DNA from: a virus
Reading direction: 5' to 3' (one strand)
DNA: 64,000 nt
IMG/VR virus record: IMGVR_UViG_3300036834_000231
Location: 1 to 64,000 of that record
Shown here: positions 15,830-58,680 of the stretch, piece after piece
Numbering within the stretch: the first letter of the stretch is position 1
How the letters are laid out: each line of letters opens with the position of its first letter
Program-made: the position numbers and the translations under genes
Notes under the pieces: generated by a model
Database searches by the model: none
Seen by the model: the letters and a program-made list of their open reading frames with translations, nothing else
What the model was told of the DNA's origin: nothing

Positions 15830-16921
15830 TTGGCCAGTAATCGCAATCCGAGTCAAAATCCCACGGAGCGGGCGCAACGCGGAGTGGTGGCCGCGCTTTC
15901 GACGCGCGACTTCTCTAGCAAGGCCCTCAAGTTCGAGGAGCAGTTTGGCCGTTTGATTCCGAACACTATCCGCAAGACCGAGATTCTGACGGCCAGCCGG
16001 GTGGTTGGCTTGCTTGTCAATCTCTACGCCTCGAATGAGGATATCCGCAAGTGCAAGCCTTCGACGATCTTGAATTCGGCCGGCCTCGCCTGCGCGGTGG
16101 GTCTGGAGTTCAATAACGCGCTCGGCCAGTCAGCCATCATCCCGTACAAGGATGTGGCAAGCTGGCAGCCCATGTACCGCGGCCTGATTACCCTCGCTTC
16201 GCGTAGCGGCCGGGTGCACGACGTAACCGCGCACGTCGTCATGGAGCAGGATTACTTCGAGTACCGCTACGGCATCCAGCCCGAGCTGCACCACAAGCCC
16301 GCCTTCCGCTGGAATGAGGGTTTCGATCTGGAGCGCGATTGGCGCTATGCCTATTCGCTCGTGCGCTTCAAGGACGGTCCCGCCGCCTTTCTGGTGATGG
16401 ATCGCTCCGAGGTCGAGCGGGTGAAGACCACTTCCTCAAGAGCCACGAGCGAGTTCGCTCCCTGGAAAGTACATCTGGAGGAGATGATCCGCAAGACACC
16501 CATCAAGCGGCACCTCAAAATGCTGGACCTGACGGCGCACGCAAATATGGCGGTGGGCCTCGACGACGCAGCCCAAGAGGGCGAGAAGCAGGACGTGGTC
16601 CTCGACTGGAAGGACTACTCGACCGAGGATCTCGACGAACCGCTCAAAGGTTACACGGCTGGCGCGGGCGAGAAGGAAAAGCCGGCAGAACCTGATGACG
16701 CCATGCCGAAGCCGGGCGGCGCCGTCCGCAGTACCTTGGGCCCGTTCACCGAAGACGACTTTTCCGAGGAAGAATTCGACTGGCTGCTACGCCAATTCAA
16801 AGCCTACGGCCACGGCCAGACCAAGGCGCAATTGCTTGGCTTCGCCGGCACATGGCGCGAGACGAAAGACGCGTTGATGGAGTACCTCAGCCATGCCGAA
16901 GCTCAAACCGCCGGCCGATGA
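15830..16921 (+). CDS. recT: RecT-family single-strand annealing protein
   Basis: A 363-residue protein that anneals complementary single strands in phage recombination. Family signature: SAGLACAVGLEFNN, IIPYKDVASWQPMYRGLITL, SGRVHDVTAHVVMEQDYFEY. The start is TTG 15830 because AAGGAGG lies 7 bases upstream. The C-terminal 90 residues form a low-complexity linker plus a small acidic domain (FTEDDFSEEEFDWLLRQFKA). It overlaps the exonuclease gene by 29 bases, as expected for a RecT/exonuclease pair. Confidence 0.9.
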   Translation: MASNRNPSQNPTERAQRGVVAALSTRDFSSKALKFEEQFGRLIPNTIRKTEILTASRVVGLLVNLYASNEDIRKCKPSTILNSAGLACAVGLEFNNALGQSAIIPYKDVASWQPMYRGLITLASRSGRVHDVTAHVVMEQDYFEYRYGIQPELHHKPAFRWNEGFDLERDWRYAYSLVRFKDGPAAFLVMDRSEVERVKTTSSRATSEFAPWKVHLEEMIRKTPIKRHLKMLDLTAHANMAVGLDDAAQEGEKQDVVLDWKDYSTEDLDEPLKGYTAGAGEKEKPAEPDDAMPKPGGAVRSTLGPFTEDDFSEEEFDWLLRQFKAYGHGQTKAQLLGFAGTWRETKDALMEYLSHAEAQTAGR

Positions 16922-19161: not shown

Positions 19162-19665
19162 AAAGGTTTTAGTGACGGCGCGCGTCAGCGCTTTCCTTTG
19201 TTGGGATTGCGAGCCGAAAAGTACCGTTTCAGCATATGAGCGTGGACTGGTTTCTCACAGGTCGGGCTTATCAGGGAATGGGGGGGTAGATTCGCGCGAC
19301 CGAGTTCCGGCATTAGCGCGTTAATCGGAAAGGGGGGGGGCAGATTCGCGCGGGGGGACCGTTTCAGCGCGAAGAAATAACGAAAAGTACCGTTTCAGCA
19401 TACGTTTCCCACAGGCGCGGTGCGCCTACTACTGTTCTGGTACATGATCTAACTACATGTATGTGAGGGTGTTTCAGCGGAGGATGGTGAGGGTGTTTCA
19501 GCGGAGGCCCGCCGTAGTAATTGCCCGCTAAGCGCCTTTAAATATCTTTATAATCAGCTTGTTATGGTCCAACAATACCTTGCCTCAGGAGTGAGGGTGT
19601 TTCAGCGGGGAAAAATGCCGGTAATCCACTAGTTTTTCCACGGCCACTTTGTCACACCTCTAGGC
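19162..19665. other. Gene-free replication origin region
   Basis: These 504 bases hold no credible gene. They carry six copies of GTTTCAGC, poly-G runs at 19280-19287 and 19332-19340, and an AT-rich stretch at 19538-19567 that could be the unwinding element. They directly follow the 3' end of repA. This is the layout of an iteron-controlled plasmid origin. Confidence 0.75.
19226..19606 (+). repeat. Six iterons with core GTTTCAGC
   Basis: Cores at 19226, 19361, 19392, 19471, 19495 and 19599. The first three share ACCGTTTCAGC (two of them AAAAGTACCGTTTCAGCATA) and the last three share GTGAGGGTGTTTCAGCGG. Cores 19471 and 19495 are 24 bases apart, close to two helix turns. All lie in one orientation, as expected for Rep-binding iterons. 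Confidence 0.8.
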
Positions 19666-20640
19666 TCACCGGTCGATAGCTTTAGGATTGACAGATGGCG
19701 GACAAGGGCGGATTTCCAAGCAACCAGGTGGAGTGGCAATGTTGAGCGTCGGCCAGCAAAGCCTCAGCTTTTTTAGTTCCCTGATAACGTCCTTGCGAAA
19801 GTCGCGGACCGTGAATTTCTCTCCCGCCCTGGCAGGGTCGGCGCCGAATTGCATGTAGAGCTTTTCCCATGAGAGGCGCTCAGGCTTTTTCTTTAGGCTG
19901 TAAAGCGTGAAGGTTTTGTATGAAAGCCACATGTACAAGTCAAGCCCGAGGGAGGACCGTTTCATTTCCTTCAGGATTCGCATGTCGAGCGGGATGGGGT
20001 GAGCAATGATTTCGTTAAAGAAGGCCTCCCCCAGATGAATTTTGCTCTGCCATAGCGTGGACTGCTCTGGTTTTTTATAGTCCCACCAAAACTCCGTCCA
20101 ATCGGCAATTGATGACGATGCGGTGGCTTTGTGGCCGGGCGTTTCGTAGATAAGCTGCACATGGGAGTTGAACAGTCTGTCTATCTGGTGCCTGAGCCGA
20201 GTATGGTCGCCTCGGTCGCCGCCACTGTCGGAATACAGCCCTAATTGCCGCATGAAGACTGAAAGCGAACTGCCAAGGAATAGCTCGCGCTCCCTTGTCC
20301 GGACAGCTTCGGTTGATACCCATGCGAGCAAAAGGCGCGGTAGATTGCCATAGGGCAATTTGTTGTCGCCGCCGGCAATCATGACCAGCTTGTATGGCCC
20401 GTTTTGGCGTTTGTACTGGAGGCGGGTTCCAGGGTCGGTTCTCGGCAAGGAACAGAGCGTTAGCAAGCGGGTCATAAAGCCCATGTCGGTGTTGGGATCG
20501 TCACCAATGCTGGCTAGAGCGTCAATCTGCTTGATGCGAGTGAAATGATGTTTGCCCTGAAGCGTGAGCGCCTTGGTTTCCTGCGGTTCGAGGCGCTCGA
20601 AAACAGGTAGTTTGTCGATGATTTCGCCGGGCTTTTTCAT
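19666..20640 (-). CDS. repA: Plasmid replication initiator RepA
   Basis: A 324-residue protein matching the plasmid RepA family (PF04796 type): GPYKLVMIAGGDNKLPYGNL, PRLLLAWVSTEAVRTRERE, LGSSLSVFMRQLGL. These proteins bind iterons and open the plasmid origin, here the adjacent 19.2-19.6 kb region. Winged-helix-type segments follow. Its presence in a phage tail contig indicates a prophage kept as a plasmid. The start overlaps the stop of the small membrane gene at 20637 (ATGA), so the two are coupled. Confidence 0.9.
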   Translation of the reverse strand: MKKPGEIIDKLPVFERLEPQETKALTLQGKHHFTRIKQIDALASIGDDPNTDMGFMTRLLTLCSLPRTDPGTRLQYKRQNGPYKLVMIAGGDNKLPYGNLPRLLLAWVSTEAVRTRERELFLGSSLSVFMRQLGLYSDSGGDRGDHTRLRHQIDRLFNSHVQLIYETPGHKATASSSIADWTEFWWDYKKPEQSTLWQSKIHLGEAFFNEIIAHPIPLDMRILKEMKRSSLGLDLYMWLSYKTFTLYSLKKKPERLSWEKLYMQFGADPARAGEKFTVRDFRKDVIRELKKLRLCWPTLNIATPPGCLEIRPCPPSVNPKAIDR

Positions 20641-20924
20641 TGGTGATGATGCTCCAGCATGTGAATCTTTATGGCGGATTCGATGCGCTGAAAGCCAGCT
20701 TCCATATCCTTGCGGAGTAGAGCAATTTCCGAGTGCAGGGTTGCCATCTCGGCGCGAAGAGTGACCATTTCCGCCCTGATCTCGGCGCGAAGGGTGGCCG
20801 TTTCCGTTTTGATTTCGGCGCGAAGCGTCTCTTTCGCCTCGGTGATGCGGCTGTTCGAATAGATCAGTAGCGAAATCGGGATGACGATCGCCATCGCGAG
20901 GGTGAATACTTGTGCATCGGTCAA
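20637..20924 (-). CDS. Membrane-anchored coiled-coil protein
   Basis: A 95-residue protein: an N-terminal membrane helix (VFTLAMAIVIPISLLIYSNS), then heptads repeated as ETATLRAEIRAEMVTLRAEM. It starts with TTG at 20924, which touches a start-associated dyad, and overlaps repA by four bases. It is one of about nine such small proteins in the window. The function is unknown; one idea is membrane tethering of the replication complex. Confidence 0.7.
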   Translation of the reverse strand: MTDAQVFTLAMAIVIPISLLIYSNSRITEAKETLRAEIKTETATLRAEIRAEMVTLRAEMATLHSEIALLRKDMEAGFQRIESAIKIHMLEHHHQ

Positions 20925-21321: not shown

Positions 21322-22344
21322 TCAGCCGCGAGCAGCCAGCCCTGGAATCTCTCCAGCGCTGGGGGCATTAGCCTCTCTCCCTAGCGGCTTTCGTGTACCG
21401 GAGTCGGTCAAACCGAGCTCCGTCCAGAGCTTGTCGCGCTCTGCCCGCCACTGTTTCACTTGCGGGTGCAAGGGGTAATCTGCCAGCAAAAGTTCCGTAG
21501 TTTCAAGAAGATACAGCTTGGATTCGCGGGTCTCCAGACCAGGCGCCGGCATTACTGCCCGAGTGGGCGGGCGGTCTCGAAGCTCCTGGATGCGTTGCCG
21601 GATCTTCGTGACCACCCCTCCCCAAGTCTTCAGCCCGGCGAAGCCTGGACGATTACGCCTGATGCTCTCGAGGATGTCGCGCGCGAACCATTGGAGCGCC
21701 CCGGGCAGATCGGGCTCGCGCTCTAACTCAGCCGAAATCCTGCCTATCGTCAGGGACGTAGCTTCGTCTTGTAGACGTAACTTAGAAGAATCAATAACTT
21801 CCCGGACCTCTGCGCTAATGTCTACCCGTACAGTCTCTGGTATAGATACGTATTCACTCTGAAAAGAACCCTCCCTCGGGTAGGGAGTTAAAACCCCACT
21901 CTTATCCCCATTCTTACTTTCCTTATATGGGTTCGGCACTTCTGCCGTACTAGTTCGGCACTTCTGCCGTACTGCTGCAAACAAAGGACTTGTGATCTCT
22001 GCCAGAGCTTTGCGGAGCGCTTCCCAGCCGAAGCGCAGCTTGAGTTTGTTCGACGGCGCCCGCTCTTCGAGCAAGAGGCCGCGGCGGACCAAATAGCGCC
22101 TAGCGCTGCGAAGCATCTTCAGGCCATATTCGTGGCCGACGAGGTCGTGGATTTCCGCCTCGCTGGTTTCCAACCAGGTTCGATCTCCGCGGCCGCCATC
22201 GGTTGAGCGAAATTGCACCGCCCAAAGAAGGAGTGCCGCCGCGGAGTTGCCCTTGCACATGGCGAGGTAGTCGTAATTCAGTTGGGCGTGCAAGGAGTTG
22301 ACTTGGCAGCCGTAGGAGTTTTGCATTGTGGCGAAAGAAATCAT
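21322..22344 (-). CDS. Phage replication protein (initiator / helicase-loader-like)
   Basis: A 340-residue protein; CAGGAGG precedes ATG 22344. The N-terminal 110 residues look like a winged helix (LLLWAVQFRSTDGGRGDRTW, LRSARRYLVRRGLLLEER). The centre is low-complexity and the C-terminus helical. It lies three bases after dnaB in one operon, where lambda O or DnaD-like loaders sit. The gene carries an internal tandem repeat (21931-21974), as origins inside lambda-type O genes do. The role is inferred. Confidence 0.65.
   Translation of the reverse strand: MISFATMQNSYGCQVNSLHAQLNYDYLAMCKGNSAAALLLWAVQFRSTDGGRGDRTWLETSEAEIHDLVGHEYGLKMLRSARRYLVRRGLLLEERAPSNKLKLRFGWEALRKALAEITSPLFAAVRQKCRTSTAEVPNPYKESKNGDKSGVLTPYPREGSFQSEYVSIPETVRVDISAEVREVIDSSKLRLQDEATSLTIGRISAELEREPDLPGALQWFARDILESIRRNRPGFAGLKTWGGVVTKIRQRIQELRDRPPTRAVMPAPGLETRESKLYLLETTELLLADYPLHPQVKQWRAERDKLWTELGLTDSGTRKPLGREANAPSAGEIPGLAARG
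21931..21974. repeat. 22-bp tandem repeat inside the replication gene
   Basis: GTTCGGCACTTCTGCCGTAC plus two bases (TA, then TG), twice without a gap. Each unit contains the dyad CGGCA-CTTC-TGCCG. Because 22 is not a multiple of three, the protein reads it in two frames (RQKCRTS, then TAEVPNP). So the DNA repeat, not the peptide, seems to be selected. Confidence 0.7.
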
Positions 22345-22346
22345 GG

Positions 22347-23810
22347 CTACCTCCTGGCGTCTCCTTCTGCGTTCGGCCCGGGCAACATGGAGCCAACCTT
22401 CCAGAAGCCGGGCCGGTCAAAGACGGCCGGTTTCTCCCCTTCCCCCTCCTCCTCAATCGGCTCGATGCCGGTGTCATTGGCCAGGTTTTCGAACCGCGTA
22501 TAGCGGTTCACAAAGGCGAGTTTGATTCGCCCAATCGGGCCGTTGCGTTGTTTCGCCAAGATCAGCTCGGCGAAGCCTTTTAGGCTTTCCTTGTCTGGCC
22601 GGTAAAGTTCTTCGCGGAAGACGAAGGCGACGAGGTCGGCGTCTTGCTCGATAGAGCCCGAGTCGCGCAGGTCGCTCAGCATGGGCCGATGGTTGCCCAT
22701 GCGCAATTCGGGTGATCGGGAAAGTTGACTGAGAACCAAGAACGGAACGCTTAAGTCTTTCGCCAGCAGCTTCAGGCCTCGCGAGATATTGCTGATTTCG
22801 TTCTGCCGGTTTTCAAAATGGCCGTGCCCCTGCATCAGCTGCAGATAGTCCACGATGACCAGGCCTAGATCGCGTTCGATTTGCAGTTGCCGCAGCTTCG
22901 CGTGCATGTCCACTAAGCTGATAGCTGCGGTGTCGTCGAGATAGAATGGCGCCTCCGCGAGGATACCGAGGGCGCTCTGGAGCGCTTCACGTTCGAAGGA
23001 GTTCAGGTAGCCTAGCCGAAAACGCTGCATATCGAGGCGTCCAATGCCGCACAGCATGCGGGTGAGCAGAGATTCCTTCGACATTTCGAGCGAAAACATG
23101 GCGACGGCTTTTTCCGTGTGCGTCACTACGTGTTGGGCGATATTCATGGCGAGCGCCGTTTTGCCCATTGCCGGCCGAGCAGCGAGAATGAATAGTTCGC
23201 CCGGCCGGAGGCCGCCAGTCATTTCGTCGAGCTTCAAGAAGCCAGTGGAGAGTCCGTGGCGCTGCAGCGACGGGTCCAGAAAGGCGTTCATCCCTCCCTC
23301 ATAGGACTTGATGATCTCCGCCGGGTTCTGCAGGACGCCACGTCTATGGTTCCATTCAGACATACGGATCAGGTTCTCTGCCGTATCCATAAGAATCTTG
23401 TGCGGATCATCGTTCACCACGCAACGCGCGATGGTTTCCTTCGAAGTGGCGATCAGTCGGCGCTGCATCTCCTTCGCCTTGATCATTCCGATGTATCCCT
23501 CGACATTTGACAGGCGAGGCATCCCCTCATCGAGCGATGCGAGGTAGGTTAGGCCTCCAACGGACGGGAGCTGGTCGATCCGTCGCAGTTCTTCGGCGAC
23601 TGCCACGCGATTGATCTGTTCGCCACGCTCGGCGAGCACTCCCATGCAGGAGAAAATGCGTTGATGTCTATCAAAATAAAAGGCCCCCGGCTGAAGGTCG
23701 GAGGCGATTTTAAGATAGGAAGTAGGGTCGTTAAAAATGGCCCCAAGAATGAACCGCTCGGCGTCGCCGTTCGAGGGCGTTTCGTCCGAGCGGGTAATAC
23801 TACGTCTCAT
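22347..23810 (-). CDS. dnaB: Replicative DNA helicase DnaB
   Basis: Encodes 487 residues from ATG 23810; a TTG at 23828 is possible. The N-terminal domain (AERFILGAIFNDPTSYLKI) is followed by the RecA-like motor: Walker A AARPAMGKTALAMN, Walker B GLVIVDYLQLM, H4 region DLRDSGSIEQDADLV and the arginine-finger region KQRNGPIGRIKL. It unwinds DNA at the fork. It is the first gene of the operon with the replication protein at 21322. The C-terminal 45 residues are acidic and variable. Confidence 0.95.
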   Translation of the reverse strand: MRRSITRSDETPSNGDAERFILGAIFNDPTSYLKIASDLQPGAFYFDRHQRIFSCMGVLAERGEQINRVAVAEELRRIDQLPSVGGLTYLASLDEGMPRLSNVEGYIGMIKAKEMQRRLIATSKETIARCVVNDDPHKILMDTAENLIRMSEWNHRRGVLQNPAEIIKSYEGGMNAFLDPSLQRHGLSTGFLKLDEMTGGLRPGELFILAARPAMGKTALAMNIAQHVVTHTEKAVAMFSLEMSKESLLTRMLCGIGRLDMQRFRLGYLNSFEREALQSALGILAEAPFYLDDTAAISLVDMHAKLRQLQIERDLGLVIVDYLQLMQGHGHFENRQNEISNISRGLKLLAKDLSVPFLVLSQLSRSPELRMGNHRPMLSDLRDSGSIEQDADLVAFVFREELYRPDKESLKGFAELILAKQRNGPIGRIKLAFVNRYTRFENLANDTGIEPIEEEGEGEKPAVFDRPGFWKVGSMLPGPNAEGDARR

Positions 23811-24155
23811 TTTGGATGTTGCAGACAACTTTCTATCTGGTTACGAGCCGGTTATGGACCGACGAAGAAAATTGCTACACACCCAAGGCGAAAGCGCTGG
23901 AGGAGCAGCCTTCGTCGGGCCTTGCTTTGCCACACACGATCTACGCAGATGTGTGCGACAGTAGTATTTGCGTTTGGCTATTGGGGCTTAACGCATCCCG
24001 AGGGTCCAGGCGAAGGTTAACGCTCTGTCTGGACCCTTACAATCTCGTCACGGAAAGTGATTATACGCCCACGGGTTACGAAAGTGTGACTGACGCGGGT
24101 TTGGCCACTTGGCCGGGGTTCCGGCGTTTATATCACTAAGCTGTCTCTGTGATAT
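23811..24155. other. Mostly non-coding gap between dnaB and the next minus gene
   Basis: 345 bases that should hold the dnaB promoter. I see no clear promoter. At the right end, half-sites ATATCAC (24130) and GTGATATC (24149) face each other 21 bases apart. One plus-strand open frame (23816-24139) is listed separately with low confidence. Confidence 0.4.
23816..24139 (+). CDS. Doubtful ORF divergent from dnaB
   Basis: A 107-codon frame from ATG 23816, only five bases from the dnaB ATG on the other strand. Composition is fairly protein-like (MLQTTFYLVTSRLWTDEENC) but there is no ribosome site or known motif, and it would fill the dnaB promoter. I give it only as a possibility. Confidence 0.22.
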   Translation: MLQTTFYLVTSRLWTDEENCYTPKAKALEEQPSSGLALPHTIYADVCDSSICVWLLGLNASRGSRRRLTLCLDPYNLVTESDYTPTGYESVTDAGLATWPGFRRLYH

Positions 24156-25995: not shown

Positions 25996-26065
25996 AACAA
26001 AACTAGTAAGCCGGTACGGCTAGAGCGTGCGCCAAACGGACGTTTATGGTACGCTCGGGCGAAAA

Positions 26066-26686
26066 ATGCGAGTGGCCCTTTATGCGCGCGTCTCCCTCCC
26101 GGGGAAGAGTCTAGACAAGAGCCAGAACCCTGAGAACCAGTTGGAGCAGCTCCGGGAATTCGTCCGGGGTTCGAAGTGGGAGCTGGTCCACGAGTACATC
26201 GACCGCATGTCGGGCAAGGGCTCGGACCGGCCGCAGTTCAAAAAGCTGTTCACCGACGCCTATCAGCGCAAGTTTGATCTGGTGGTGTTCTGGGCCCTCG
26301 ACCGGTTCTCGCGGGAAGGCGTGCTCGCGACGCTGAATCACCTGCAGAGGCTATCGAGCTACGGTGTGAATTGGCGCTCGTTTCAAGAGCCGTACTTTGA
26401 CTCGTGCGGGCCTTTCAAGGATGCTGTGATTTCGATCATGGCGAGCTTAGCGCGCATCGAGCGGGAGCGGATCAGCGAGCGAACCAAGGCGGGGCTCGAG
26501 CGGGCGCGGCGGGCCGGCAAGGTGCTGGGGCGCCCGGAGGCGCCGAAGGATCTCGCGGAACTACGGCGGTTGCGCGAGTCAGGCCTGTCTTTGCGGCAGA
26601 TCGCCGGGCAGACGGGGCATCCCTTGACGACGGTAGCCCAGGCTTTGAAAGCCAAGAAGGTTGATATCACCGTCATTTCGGCGTGA
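26066..26686 (+). CDS. Serine recombinase (resolvase/invertase)
   Basis: Encodes 206 residues from ATG 26066. The catalytic Ser is in MRVALYARVS. The resolvase core (FDLVVFWALDRFSREGVLAT, SLARIERERISERTKAGLER) and a C-terminal Hin-like helix-turn-helix (LRESGLSLRQIAGQTGHPLT) follow. It may resolve plasmid multimers or invert or integrate DNA. The last codons (VDITVISA) read through the dyad at 26664, as in the lysozyme gene. Confidence 0.9.
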   Translation: MRVALYARVSLPGKSLDKSQNPENQLEQLREFVRGSKWELVHEYIDRMSGKGSDRPQFKKLFTDAYQRKFDLVVFWALDRFSREGVLATLNHLQRLSSYGVNWRSFQEPYFDSCGPFKDAVISIMASLARIERERISERTKAGLERARRAGKVLGRPEAPKDLAELRRLRESGLSLRQIAGQTGHPLTTVAQALKAKKVDITVISA

Positions 26687-35185: not shown

Positions 35186-35968
35186 TCAGGCGGACTTCCT
35201 CTTCGCGGGCTTCCCTTTGAGAGAGGCCTGCAAGGCGACCATCAGATCGTTGGTCTCGCTCTGCGGCGGGCGCTTGGCCAAGGTGTGCACCTTATTCCCT
35301 TGCCGTTTGGCCTGTAGCAGTTTTTCCACGGATTGCTGGTAGCCGTCCACGTATTGCGCGTGGTCGAATTTGTCCGAGGTGGCGCGTAGCAATTGTTTAG
35401 CCAGCGCTAGTTCCTTCGCTTCGATCGGAATGGCTTCCAGCCCGAGGTGGGGCGCTGCGTGCACCTCCCCCTGGTAGAACATGGTGTGGAAGACGAGCGT
35501 TCCGTTGTACGGCCGGATGACGATGACGTGTTCGCGCGAGTGCAGGGTAGCGCGCGCGATGGCGTACCGCTTCTCGGCGCGCAGGGCATCGTGCAATAGC
35601 TTGTAGCCCTTCATGCCGGCGGTGTCCGGTTCGAGGTAGTAGGACGACTCGAACAAGAGCGGATCGACTGCGTTCGCGGCGACGCACTGTTCGATCTCCA
35701 TGCTGTGCGAGCTGTCAGGCTGGCAATCCTTCAGCTCCTCATCGCTGACGGTCACGTATTGGTCCTTCGCCACTTCGTGGCCGCGGTGCGTATCCTTGCG
35801 GGTGATTTCCTTATTGCACTTGGGACACCACGTCTTGGTGTTGATGCGGCTGCCGCATTCGCTATGCAGCAAGTTGAATGAGATTGATTCAGCCCGGGCG
35901 GCGATCGTCACCTTCACCGGGATGTTCACGAGTCCAAAGGAAATAGTGCCCTTCCAAATGGCGGCCAT
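35186..35968 (-). CDS. ku: Ku, DNA end-binding protein for non-homologous end joining
   Basis: A 260-residue protein with the bacterial Ku core: AAIWKGTISFGLVNIPVKV, FNLLHSECGSRINTKTWCPK, SSYYLEPDTAGMKGYKLLHD. The dimeric ring threads onto broken DNA ends and recruits a ligase. Here an ATP-dependent ligase gene lies 333 bases upstream in the same direction. The C-terminus (LKGKPAKRKSA) is short and basic. Its ATG shares bases with the stop of a 17-codon leader ORF. Confidence 0.95.
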   Translation of the reverse strand: MAAIWKGTISFGLVNIPVKVTIAARAESISFNLLHSECGSRINTKTWCPKCNKEITRKDTHRGHEVAKDQYVTVSDEELKDCQPDSSHSMEIEQCVAANAVDPLLFESSYYLEPDTAGMKGYKLLHDALRAEKRYAIARATLHSREHVIVIRPYNGTLVFHTMFYQGEVHAAPHLGLEAIPIEAKELALAKQLLRATSDKFDHAQYVDGYQQSVEKLLQAKRQGNKVHTLAKRPPQSETNDLMVALQASLKGKPAKRKSA

Positions 35969-36021
35969 TAGCGTTCACCTCCGTGGGTGCGGGTCAGTTT
36001 AGGGGTATGTCTGCTCAGCAT
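35968..36021 (-). CDS. 17-residue leader ORF coupled to ku
   Basis: MLSRHTPKLTRTHGGER, from ATG 36021 after AGGAG, stopping at TAA 35970-35968, which overlaps the ku ATG (TAATG). The layout suggests translational coupling. An AT-rich stretch with TATATA and TATAAT-like words at 36030-36052 is the likely promoter. Confidence 0.5.
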   Translation of the reverse strand: MLSRHTPKLTRTHGGER

Positions 36022-36121
36022 TTGATCTCCTATATATTTTCTATTATAAATATAACAAGGTGAGGTGTTCTTTGTCCAAGAACAAGCTTGTTTCTGGATT
36101 TAAAAAAATAACCGCGACGGG

Positions 36122-36304
36122 TCATTCTTCTTCCACCTTGCAAGCTCTGTACGTAATCTCTATCTCTCGATACAACTCCATGTGCGTCTCGCACACATGG
36201 CACCACGCAAGACGATAAGAACACAGGAGGTCATTGCCGAAAAGCTCTGCGCCATTATCGAAGATGTGGCCGCAATTGGGGCAACGATAGGCAGTTGAGG
36301 TCAT
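36122..36304 (-). CDS. Zinc-ribbon protein
   Basis: A 60-residue protein from ATG 36304, coupled to the ligase stop (ATGA) and with AAAGGA in front. Two metal knuckles: YRCPNCGHIFDNG and WCHVCETHM. Lies between ligase and ku, so a part in end joining is possible but unproven. Confidence 0.7.
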   Translation of the reverse strand: MTSTAYRCPNCGHIFDNGAELFGNDLLCSYRLAWCHVCETHMELYREIEITYRACKVEEE

Positions 36305-37197
36305 TTCTTTCCTTTCGGCGCGACTATCTCTAGAGTCGGCTTCCCTTGGTTGGACGGCATTCTCATCGATCCTTTCGTGTGCAGTTGCGCGGCCGTGCAT
36401 TCGGCGCGGCGGATGTCCCGGCGGACTCCGCGGTAAACCGCTTGGATCAGATCCCCTCCGATATCATGGCGATACAAGTATTCCACCTCGATGATTTGCC
36501 CGGCTTTGGGAATTTCCTGGTTGGGCGGGATGGTCACGGAGCCGACCGGCGTATCGTCCGCAAGCTTGATCTCGACGCTACGCTTCGCGCCACGCTGTTG
36601 GGCGACGATCACCGAGCAGGTGTTGACGAACTTGAATTTCAGGGCGGGGCCTCCGCTGTTGGGGCGGCCGCCTGAGTAGGCAGCATCGCGGCGTTTGAAG
36701 ACTACGCCTTCCAACCCATTTTCGTGGATGGAGCGGTAGAGGGTTTGCTTGTCTTGGACGCCAAAGGCGGAAACCACGGGTAAGATACGCCTGGGAGGAT
36801 TCTTCCCGCCCCATATGGCTTCGATGTAGCTAATGCGAAACTCGCAGGCCAGCCGCCATATCGCGTTGTCGCCGTACTGAAGAAGGTCGAAGCAGATGTA
36901 GTCGTCGCCGATCAGTTCGCCGTCGAGCACCAGACGCGAGGGAAGCGATAGCGTGGCGTCTACCACGGTTTGCGGGAGGGTGATCGGCTTCCCGGTTCGG
37001 GAGATCCCCCGGGGCCTGGCGCCGGTGCGCGATTCGAGACGAACGCGCACTCCGTCGAATTTGGGTTGCAGGAGCCACGCCTCGTCTGCGAGAAGGCGTT
37101 CCATTTCCGCCCTGTCGATCGAGGTCAATAGCTGGTGGCCGGGGATCGGCTGTTCGTCTGCGGCGTGAGAGTCTCGATGGTGAAGGGGTTTTGGCAT
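36301..37197 (-). CDS. ATP-dependent DNA ligase (LigD-ligase-like)
   Basis: Encodes 298 residues from ATG 37197. Nucleotidyltransferase motifs: I LLQPKFDGVRVRL with the adenylated Lys (KxDG), III SRLVLDGELIG, IV GLEGVVFKRRD, V ALKFKFVNT. A C-terminal OB-like part follows. No polymerase or nuclease domain, so it is a stand-alone ligase. With the zinc-ribbon protein and Ku it forms a minus-strand end-joining operon. Confidence 0.88.
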   Translation of the reverse strand: MPKPLHHRDSHAADEQPIPGHQLLTSIDRAEMERLLADEAWLLQPKFDGVRVRLESRTGARPRGISRTGKPITLPQTVVDATLSLPSRLVLDGELIGDDYICFDLLQYGDNAIWRLACEFRISYIEAIWGGKNPPRRILPVVSAFGVQDKQTLYRSIHENGLEGVVFKRRDAAYSGGRPNSGGPALKFKFVNTCSVIVAQQRGAKRSVEIKLADDTPVGSVTIPPNQEIPKAGQIIEVEYLYRHDIGGDLIQAVYRGVRRDIRRAECTAAQLHTKGSMRMPSNQGKPTLEIVAPKGKK

Positions 37198-37207
37198 ATA
37201 TATACGA

Positions 37208-37225
37208 GTGCTAACAGTATAGCAC
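37208..37225. promoter_or_regulatory. Palindromic operator over the ligase promoter
   Basis: GTGCTA acagta TAGCAC, perfect six-base arms. On the minus strand TATACT, a good -10 word, lies across its centre, 11 bases before the ligase start region. A repressor bound here would control the whole end-joining operon. Confidence 0.6.
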
Positions 37226-37277
37226 ATAAATAATATACGGAAAAATTAGCCGGGTCGAGACCGGTTATGCTTTGGTC

Positions 37278-51383: not shown

Positions 51384-51647
51384 CTATGCGCGTTGCGTTT
51401 TTGCCTTACTGCACTTGTGCGCGCGCATTTCACGCGCACTCAGCTCCAGCCCGCACTTAGGGCAGAGTCTTATCACTCGCGGTCGACCGCCCTGCGCACT
51501 GTCGCACTTGTGTGCGCGCATCTCACGCGCACTCAGTTCCAGCCCGCACTTAGGGCAGGGTCTTATCACGCGCGGTCGACCGCCGCCGTAGGTCTTACGC
51601 AGGGCGTTAAGCGCCCTCCCGAGAGCGGACTTCGCTGCGCGATTCAT
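51384..51647 (-). CDS. Duplicated zinc-knuckle protein
   Basis: An 87-residue protein with two near-identical units: GGRPRVIRPCPKCGLELSAR, EMRAHKC and GGRPRVIRLCPKCGLELSAR, EMRAHKC. The DNA is duplicated over about 75 bases. Each unit carries CxxC and HxC. Related to the single unit at 44861. Likely nucleic acid binding. Confidence 0.7.
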   Translation of the reverse strand: MNRAAKSALGRALNALRKTYGGGRPRVIRPCPKCGLELSAREMRAHKCDSAQGGRPRVIRLCPKCGLELSAREMRAHKCSKAKTQRA

Positions 51648-57573: not shown

Positions 57574-57822
57574 GTGACCTGGGTGAATGTGTGGGGACCG
57601 GCGCTCATCGTGTGCTTGACCGCTTTTATGGGCTTTCTTTGGGGGAACGGGCGCGTCAAGGACTTGAAGGAAGACGTGATCCGGCACATCGACGGACTGG
57701 AAAAGCGTCTCACCGACAAAATCGACGCGGTGGAAAAGCGTCTCGACGACAAAATCGACGGCGTAGAGAAGCGTTTGACCGACCGCATGGAGCGGTTAGA
57801 GCATCCGATCTACCGGCCTTAA
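57574..57822 (+). CDS. Membrane-anchored coiled-coil protein
   Basis: An 82-residue protein: membrane helix WGPALIVCLTAFMGFLWGNG, then three repeats of 11 residues with the pattern EKRLTDKIDAV / EKRLDDKIDGV / EKRLTDRMERL. Same plan as 50004 and 58384. Confidence 0.7.
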   Translation: MTWVNVWGPALIVCLTAFMGFLWGNGRVKDLKEDVIRHIDGLEKRLTDKIDAVEKRLDDKIDGVEKRLTDRMERLEHPIYRP

Positions 57823-58385: not shown

Positions 58386-58680
58386 GACGGGACCGAACTC
58401 AGAAGCTTTGCAGGTGTTTTACGGGACGTTGCCTTTGATAGGGGCGGCGGTATTGGCGGTATGGACGAACAATTACCGATTAGGGGAGTTGAGCAAGCGG
58501 CTGGACGATGGGTTGGCGGGGGTGAATAAGCGGCTGGATGATAGTTTGGGCGCGGTGAATAAGCGGCTGGATGACGGGCAGGGGGCGTTGCAGGCGTTTC
58601 GGGCGGACGTGCGGCAGGATTTTAAGGAGGTAAAGGAGCGGCTGACGGACCTGGAGAAGAGCGCGCGGTTGGTGAGGTAG
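58384..58680 (+). CDS. Membrane-anchored coiled-coil protein
   Basis: A 98-residue protein: membrane part VFYGTLPLIGAAVLAVWTNN, then LGELSKRLDDGLAGVNKRLD and repeats of NKRLDDSLGAV. The ATG is fixed by the dyad. Confidence 0.7.
   Translation: MTGPNSEALQVFYGTLPLIGAAVLAVWTNNYRLGELSKRLDDGLAGVNKRLDDSLGAVNKRLDDGQGALQAFRADVRQDFKEVKERLTDLEKSARLVR

Follow-up and report, generated by a model that had tools for sequence, protein, structure and literature searches.

In phage lambda, the origin of replication lies inside gene O, where iterons of ~20 bp with internal dyads follow one another at frame-breaking spacings of 20 to 24 bp, just past the part of the gene that encodes the DNA-binding domain, and are flanked downstream by an AT-rich region. 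Lambda carries four iterons and uses the host DnaB together with the loader P, which is encoded downstream; its minimal unwinding unit consists of two iterons plus the AT-rich region (PMC7466680). In Geobacillus phage GBK2, five palindromic units occupy the linker of a winged-helix initiator encoded near dnaB. These are exact palindromes of 20 to 21 bp, 23 bp apart (AGTTGGTA-AAA-TACCAACT), and they fall in two frames. The phage-plasmid P1 has two origins, oriR, which works with RepA and iterons in the prophage, and the lytic oriL, which lies inside repL; P1 also encodes ParA and a DnaB of its own (Ban). The repL gene has no repeat array, and its origin depends on an AT-rich tract (PMC9948254). 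Finally, gene 43 of phages Sf6 and HK620, an initiator gene upstream of and beside a phage dnaB, is annotated as containing a putative repeat origin.

We examined a locus with a related layout in a window of 64,000 nt (bases 1 to 64000 of a 96,282-bp virus record). The original prediction described two exact units of an out-of-frame 22-bp tandem repeat within a gene beside dnaB. Both TRF and a repeat finder recovered this array as two 21-nt copies of GTTCGGCACTTCTGCCGTACT, 100% identical and with a period of 22, in the middle of a 340-codon gene. The array spans positions 21931 to 21973; the start had been predicted correctly, but the second unit stops at 21973 rather than at 21974. Since the host gene is on the minus strand (22344..21322), the unit reads AGTACGGCAGAAGTGCCGAAC in the direction of the gene. 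The features of the immediate locus are as follows.

22347 to 23828, minus strand: DnaB replicative helicase (TIGR00665, 460 bits; PF03796 and PF00772).
21322 to 22344, minus strand: orphan 340-amino-acid protein P0001, proposed from a fold model and gene position to be an origin-binding initiator.
21953 to 21973, minus strand: proposed iteron 1 in the gene direction, an identical copy of iteron 2 at a distance of 22 bp, read in the other frame as VRQKCRT.
21931 to 21951, minus strand: proposed iteron 2 in the gene direction, a 20-bp imperfect palindrome read as STAEVPN.
21778 to 21927, no strand assigned: AT-rich region of low stability, a candidate DNA unwinding element by AT content and stability.
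21894 to 21916, no strand assigned: two imperfect 12-mers, CCCCACTCTTAT and CCCCATTCTTA, inside the AT-rich region.

Each copy of the array contains the dyad GT(T/A)CGGCA-CTTC-TGCCG(T/A)AC, 20 bp long. The CGGCA-N4-TGCCG dyad noted earlier was thus present but had been drawn too short, as the arms have an 8-4-8 arrangement with one mismatch. A comparable dyad occurs in ~2.4% of random 22-bp tandem units. When repeats with spacings of 14 to 40 bp were scored, the array reached 21, far above chance, since four order-3 Markov copies of the 64,000 nt gave 11 at most. It is the sole frame-breaking tandem repeat in the 64,000 nt, the other strong near-tandem repeats having spacings of 21, 24, and 33, all multiples of three. 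No further match to the unit was found in the window at up to three mismatches (0.01 expected) or elsewhere in the 96,282-bp record at up to four, and an exact search of viral contigs with the 20-bp unit returned no match. Among other repeats of the window, 33-bp tandem repeats lie in small reading frames at 20746-20825, 57688-57783, and 58495-58578, where the frame-keeping spacing points to proteins with repetitive parts, for example coiled coils; a 93-bp tandem in two copies that are 93% alike lies at 51411-51584.

As predicted, the spacing of the units is not a multiple of three, and the frame is nonetheless intact: it remains open through the array, and the two copies are translated in two different frames (VRQKCRT and then STAEVPN), which indicates that the DNA, and not the protein, is what stays identical. 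Codon use, learned from the other genes of the window, favored the annotated frame both before and after the array. Over the 164 codons past the array, the annotated frame scored -2 bits, versus -97 and -112 bits for the other two; it is therefore the clear coding frame there, and the open reading frame is neither a chance occurrence nor a broken frame. Codon use was poor and GC3 was low in the repeat and in the linker behind it (linker GC3, 0.39 versus 0.72 and 0.63), as would be expected where a DNA function overrides coding. We also considered whether the array might be a recent neutral duplication that arose by slippage and has no function. The copies are identical and only two in number, as such an event would leave them, and we found no relatives that show retention of the array. 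However, a 22-bp duplication would have shifted the frame that we find intact, every unit is a dyad, and similar repeats turn up at the corresponding position of phage initiators that are not related (see below), so that we regard slippage as improbable.

P0001 is predicted to comprise a winged helix at about residues 20 to 123, a linker at residues 124 to 176, and a helical C-terminal part. Modeled without an alignment, residues 18 to 123 formed two helices, a strand, two further helices, and a two-strand wing (mean pLDDT, 69). In this model of moderate confidence, the array encodes residues 124 to 138, directly behind the predicted winged helix. A structure search gave no match below an E value of 0.001; the weak matches were winged-helix regulators and several phage replication initiators. 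Taken with the gene position, the weak fold model suggests that P0001 is an initiator. By sequence comparison, it is outside every known initiator family: it had no match in Pfam at E values up to 0.01, including to PF04492 (Phage_rep_O), no match in NCBIfam, and no significant match in PHROG, and no credible relative was found in viral contigs, bacterial genomes, phage and plasmid records, PHROGs, NCBIfam, Pfam, or the PDB. Searches of viral contigs gave no useful relatives of RepA or DnaB, and neither DnaB nor P0001 was present in any of ten contigs with distant terminases. The large terminase of the record itself (955 amino acids; L003:12121-14988, record positions 76121-78988, outside the window) seemingly contains two inteins, of which the first would lie at the Walker A motif (HGK/LLAMETPTF...FIPTHN/SEM) and the second behind IVMM (CMTGDTRVL...LVSHN/T).

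The DNA on one side of the array is unusually prone to melting. The 150-bp AT-rich region begins 4 bp downstream of the array in the gene direction; at 57% AT, versus a window mean of 41%, it ranks in the top 0.2% of the window for AT content, and nearest-neighbor energies make it the second least stable of all 150-bp stretches there. AT content was 0.56 in the 100 bp downstream of the array versus an ordinary 0.42 upstream. The region also contains TTATCCCCA at 21902, a weak match that differs from a DnaA box at one position; no good DnaA box was found. GC skew showed no switch at the array, but it is confounded by gene direction and so carries no weight either way. Two further explanations can be weighed against these observations. 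In the first, the palindromes are operators through which P0001 or another regulator controls the dnaB operon, and there is no origin. Tandem 20-bp dyads at 22-bp spacing would also suit a dimeric repressor, and the winged helix predicted for P0001 is of a kind common in regulators, but the dyads are located ~370 bp into the downstream member of the dnaB gene pair, no promoter is predicted next to them, and the melting-prone region directly adjoins them. We judge this explanation unlikely, if slightly less so than slippage. In the second, the repeats work as mRNA hairpins with a role in, for instance, attenuation or the control of translation. The mRNA strand does fold better than shuffled sequences (z = -3.4). 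However, this is expected from any DNA palindrome, the array is deep in the gene with no T run directly behind it, and hairpins leave the AT-rich neighbor unexplained; of the explanations considered here, we give this one very little credence.

To place the array in context, we turned to 19 phage loci in which an initiator gene could be identified, in nearly all cases next to dnaB, and gave each listed gene a score for near-tandem repeats, with a threshold of 12. Two loci without a clear initiator candidate contributed control genes only. Repeats that reached the threshold were present in 11 of the 19 initiator genes and in 1 of 65 neighboring genes (Fisher p = 4e-8), a comparison of loci that were not random picks, with the initiator label set by annotation or adjacency and the fixed gene list for the test drawn up after a first scan of those same genes. 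The single positive control gene, in Marinomonas phage P12026, lies beside that phage's initiator candidate, and the eight initiators below the threshold include P1 repL. Most of the initiator arrays lie at approximately residues 107 to 181. In six, the spacing is no multiple of three (lambda O, Sf6 gene 43, D3, GBK2, Synechococcus phage Yong-M4-211, and Marinomonas phage P12026). Some arrays (Vibrio phage 1.265.O, SPP1, and Javan275) consist of simple repeats, which may be a consequence of the protein's composition.

The same genome carries the components of a separate, plasmid-type replicon; the order on the minus strand is dnaB, the P0001 gene, and, further on, repA, which is followed by the iteron region.

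19666 to 20640, minus strand: RepA, initiator of the separate plasmid-type replicon (PF04796).
19463 to 19611, plus strand: RepA-type iterons GTGAGGGTGTTTCAGCGG, with copies at 19463, 19487, and 19591; proposed plasmid origin.
29512 to 30261, minus strand: ParA-like partition ATPase (PF13614).

This RepA is ~40% identical to plasmid RepA proteins from many bacteria. Additional GTTTCAGC sites lie at 19215-19402, and the RepA iterons differ from the array units in the P0001 gene, which favors the earlier suggestion of a second origin distinct from that of RepA. The ParA-like ATPase supports a plasmid prophage. Elsewhere in the record, an intergenic array at L003:4440-4640 (record positions ~68440-68640) has TGGTRGCTTCGGT repeated five to seven times, in part within units of 28 bp, and may represent a partition site or a further set of iterons. 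Adjoining genes for Ku and an ATP-dependent DNA ligase, an end-joining pair, lie on the minus strand at window positions 35186-37227; a RecT recombinase is encoded at 15830-16921 and a resolvase-type serine recombinase at 26027-26686. The window contained no Rfam family and no tRNA.

Because RepA, a separate set of iterons, and ParA occur on the same genome, the proposed P0001 origin probably serves lytic replication and the RepA origin that of the prophage plasmid, and we lean toward a lytic role for the intragenic iteron origin. By this analysis, the virus would probably be a P1-like two-replicon phage-plasmid. A variant that overlaps with this reading has a real origin in the P0001 gene that is not lytic but serves the prophage or both states, with RepA as a backup or a relic. 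The sequence is silent on when either replicon is expressed; nevertheless, RepA and ParA make up the usual set for plasmid maintenance, and in P1 the initiator with an internal origin is the lytic one. We therefore hold the nonlytic variant to be a minority possibility, though a more serious one than operators, slippage, or hairpins.

We consider it likely that the array is the iteron pair of a lambda-like origin within the gene that encodes its initiator. The idea of such an origin gains support from the paired palindromic iterons, their near two-turn spacing, and the open frame, and further from the DNA-binding domain predicted just before the array, the melting-prone side placed as in lambda, and the adjoining dnaB. 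The neighboring gene is indeed dnaB, as the matches to TIGR00665, PF03796, and PF00772 indicate; it is directly upstream of the P0001 gene on the same strand, with a 2-bp gap. The function of P0001, its binding to the repeats, the opening of the strands, the loading of the helicase, and the use of the origin in lytic growth are inferred, as follows. Through its predicted winged-helix N-terminal domain, P0001 probably occupies each of the 20-bp palindromes as a dimer, and since the 22-bp spacing amounts to about two helical turns, both dimers would face roughly the same side of the helix. Bound P0001 would then open the adjoining 150-bp region of low stability, where the phage DnaB, encoded just upstream, would be loaded. 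The array would encode a flexible linker between two parts of the protein that tolerates whatever residues result, which is why the DNA can keep its sequence.

If this interpretation is right, the origin that an uncultured phage-plasmid likely uses in lytic growth has been placed to within ~200 bp, and a role has been given to a protein that no database recognizes. It would also mean that the lambda layout, with the origin in the interdomain linker of the initiator, recurs in initiators unrelated in sequence, and that a tandem palindrome with a spacing that is not a multiple of three, in a gene beside dnaB, can serve to locate phage origins. A bolder proposal, which we put forward tentatively and at somewhat less than even chances, is that P0001 founds a new initiator family that arrived at the lambda design independently, on a phage-plasmid genome that combines a RepA replicon of the PF04796 type with a lytic replicon driven by iterons. 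Were this true, frame-breaking palindromic repeats in the linkers of winged-helix proteins encoded next to dnaB would mark phage lytic origins in general, with no need for annotation.

Among the known systems, lambda shares with this locus the size, dyads, and frame-breaking spacing of the iterons, their position in the initiator gene (here a proposed one), and the AT-rich region downstream. It differs in having four iterons instead of two, in the lack of sequence relationship between O and P0001, and in its use of a downstream loader with host DnaB, whereas here the phage's own dnaB is upstream. GBK2 is the closest in design: its palindromic array also lies near dnaB and falls in the linker of a winged-helix initiator, as is predicted for the array in P0001. 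Its five units are of another sequence, however, and its initiator, composed of Phage_rep_O (PF04492) and DnaB_2, is unrelated to P0001; both lambda O and the GBK2 initiator match PF04492, and P0001 does not. In Sf6 and HK620, the repeat differs, and the initiator gene precedes dnaB, whereas the P0001 gene follows it. The likeness to P1 is one of organization, as a phage-plasmid with RepA and iterons, ParA, its own DnaB, and, as proposed here, a second, intragenic origin; the RepA of this virus is of the PF04796 type, and P0001 has no meaningful similarity to RepL (best E value, 0.02, not collinear). Most likely, then, the locus represents a known kind of origin, here set in an unrelated initiator.
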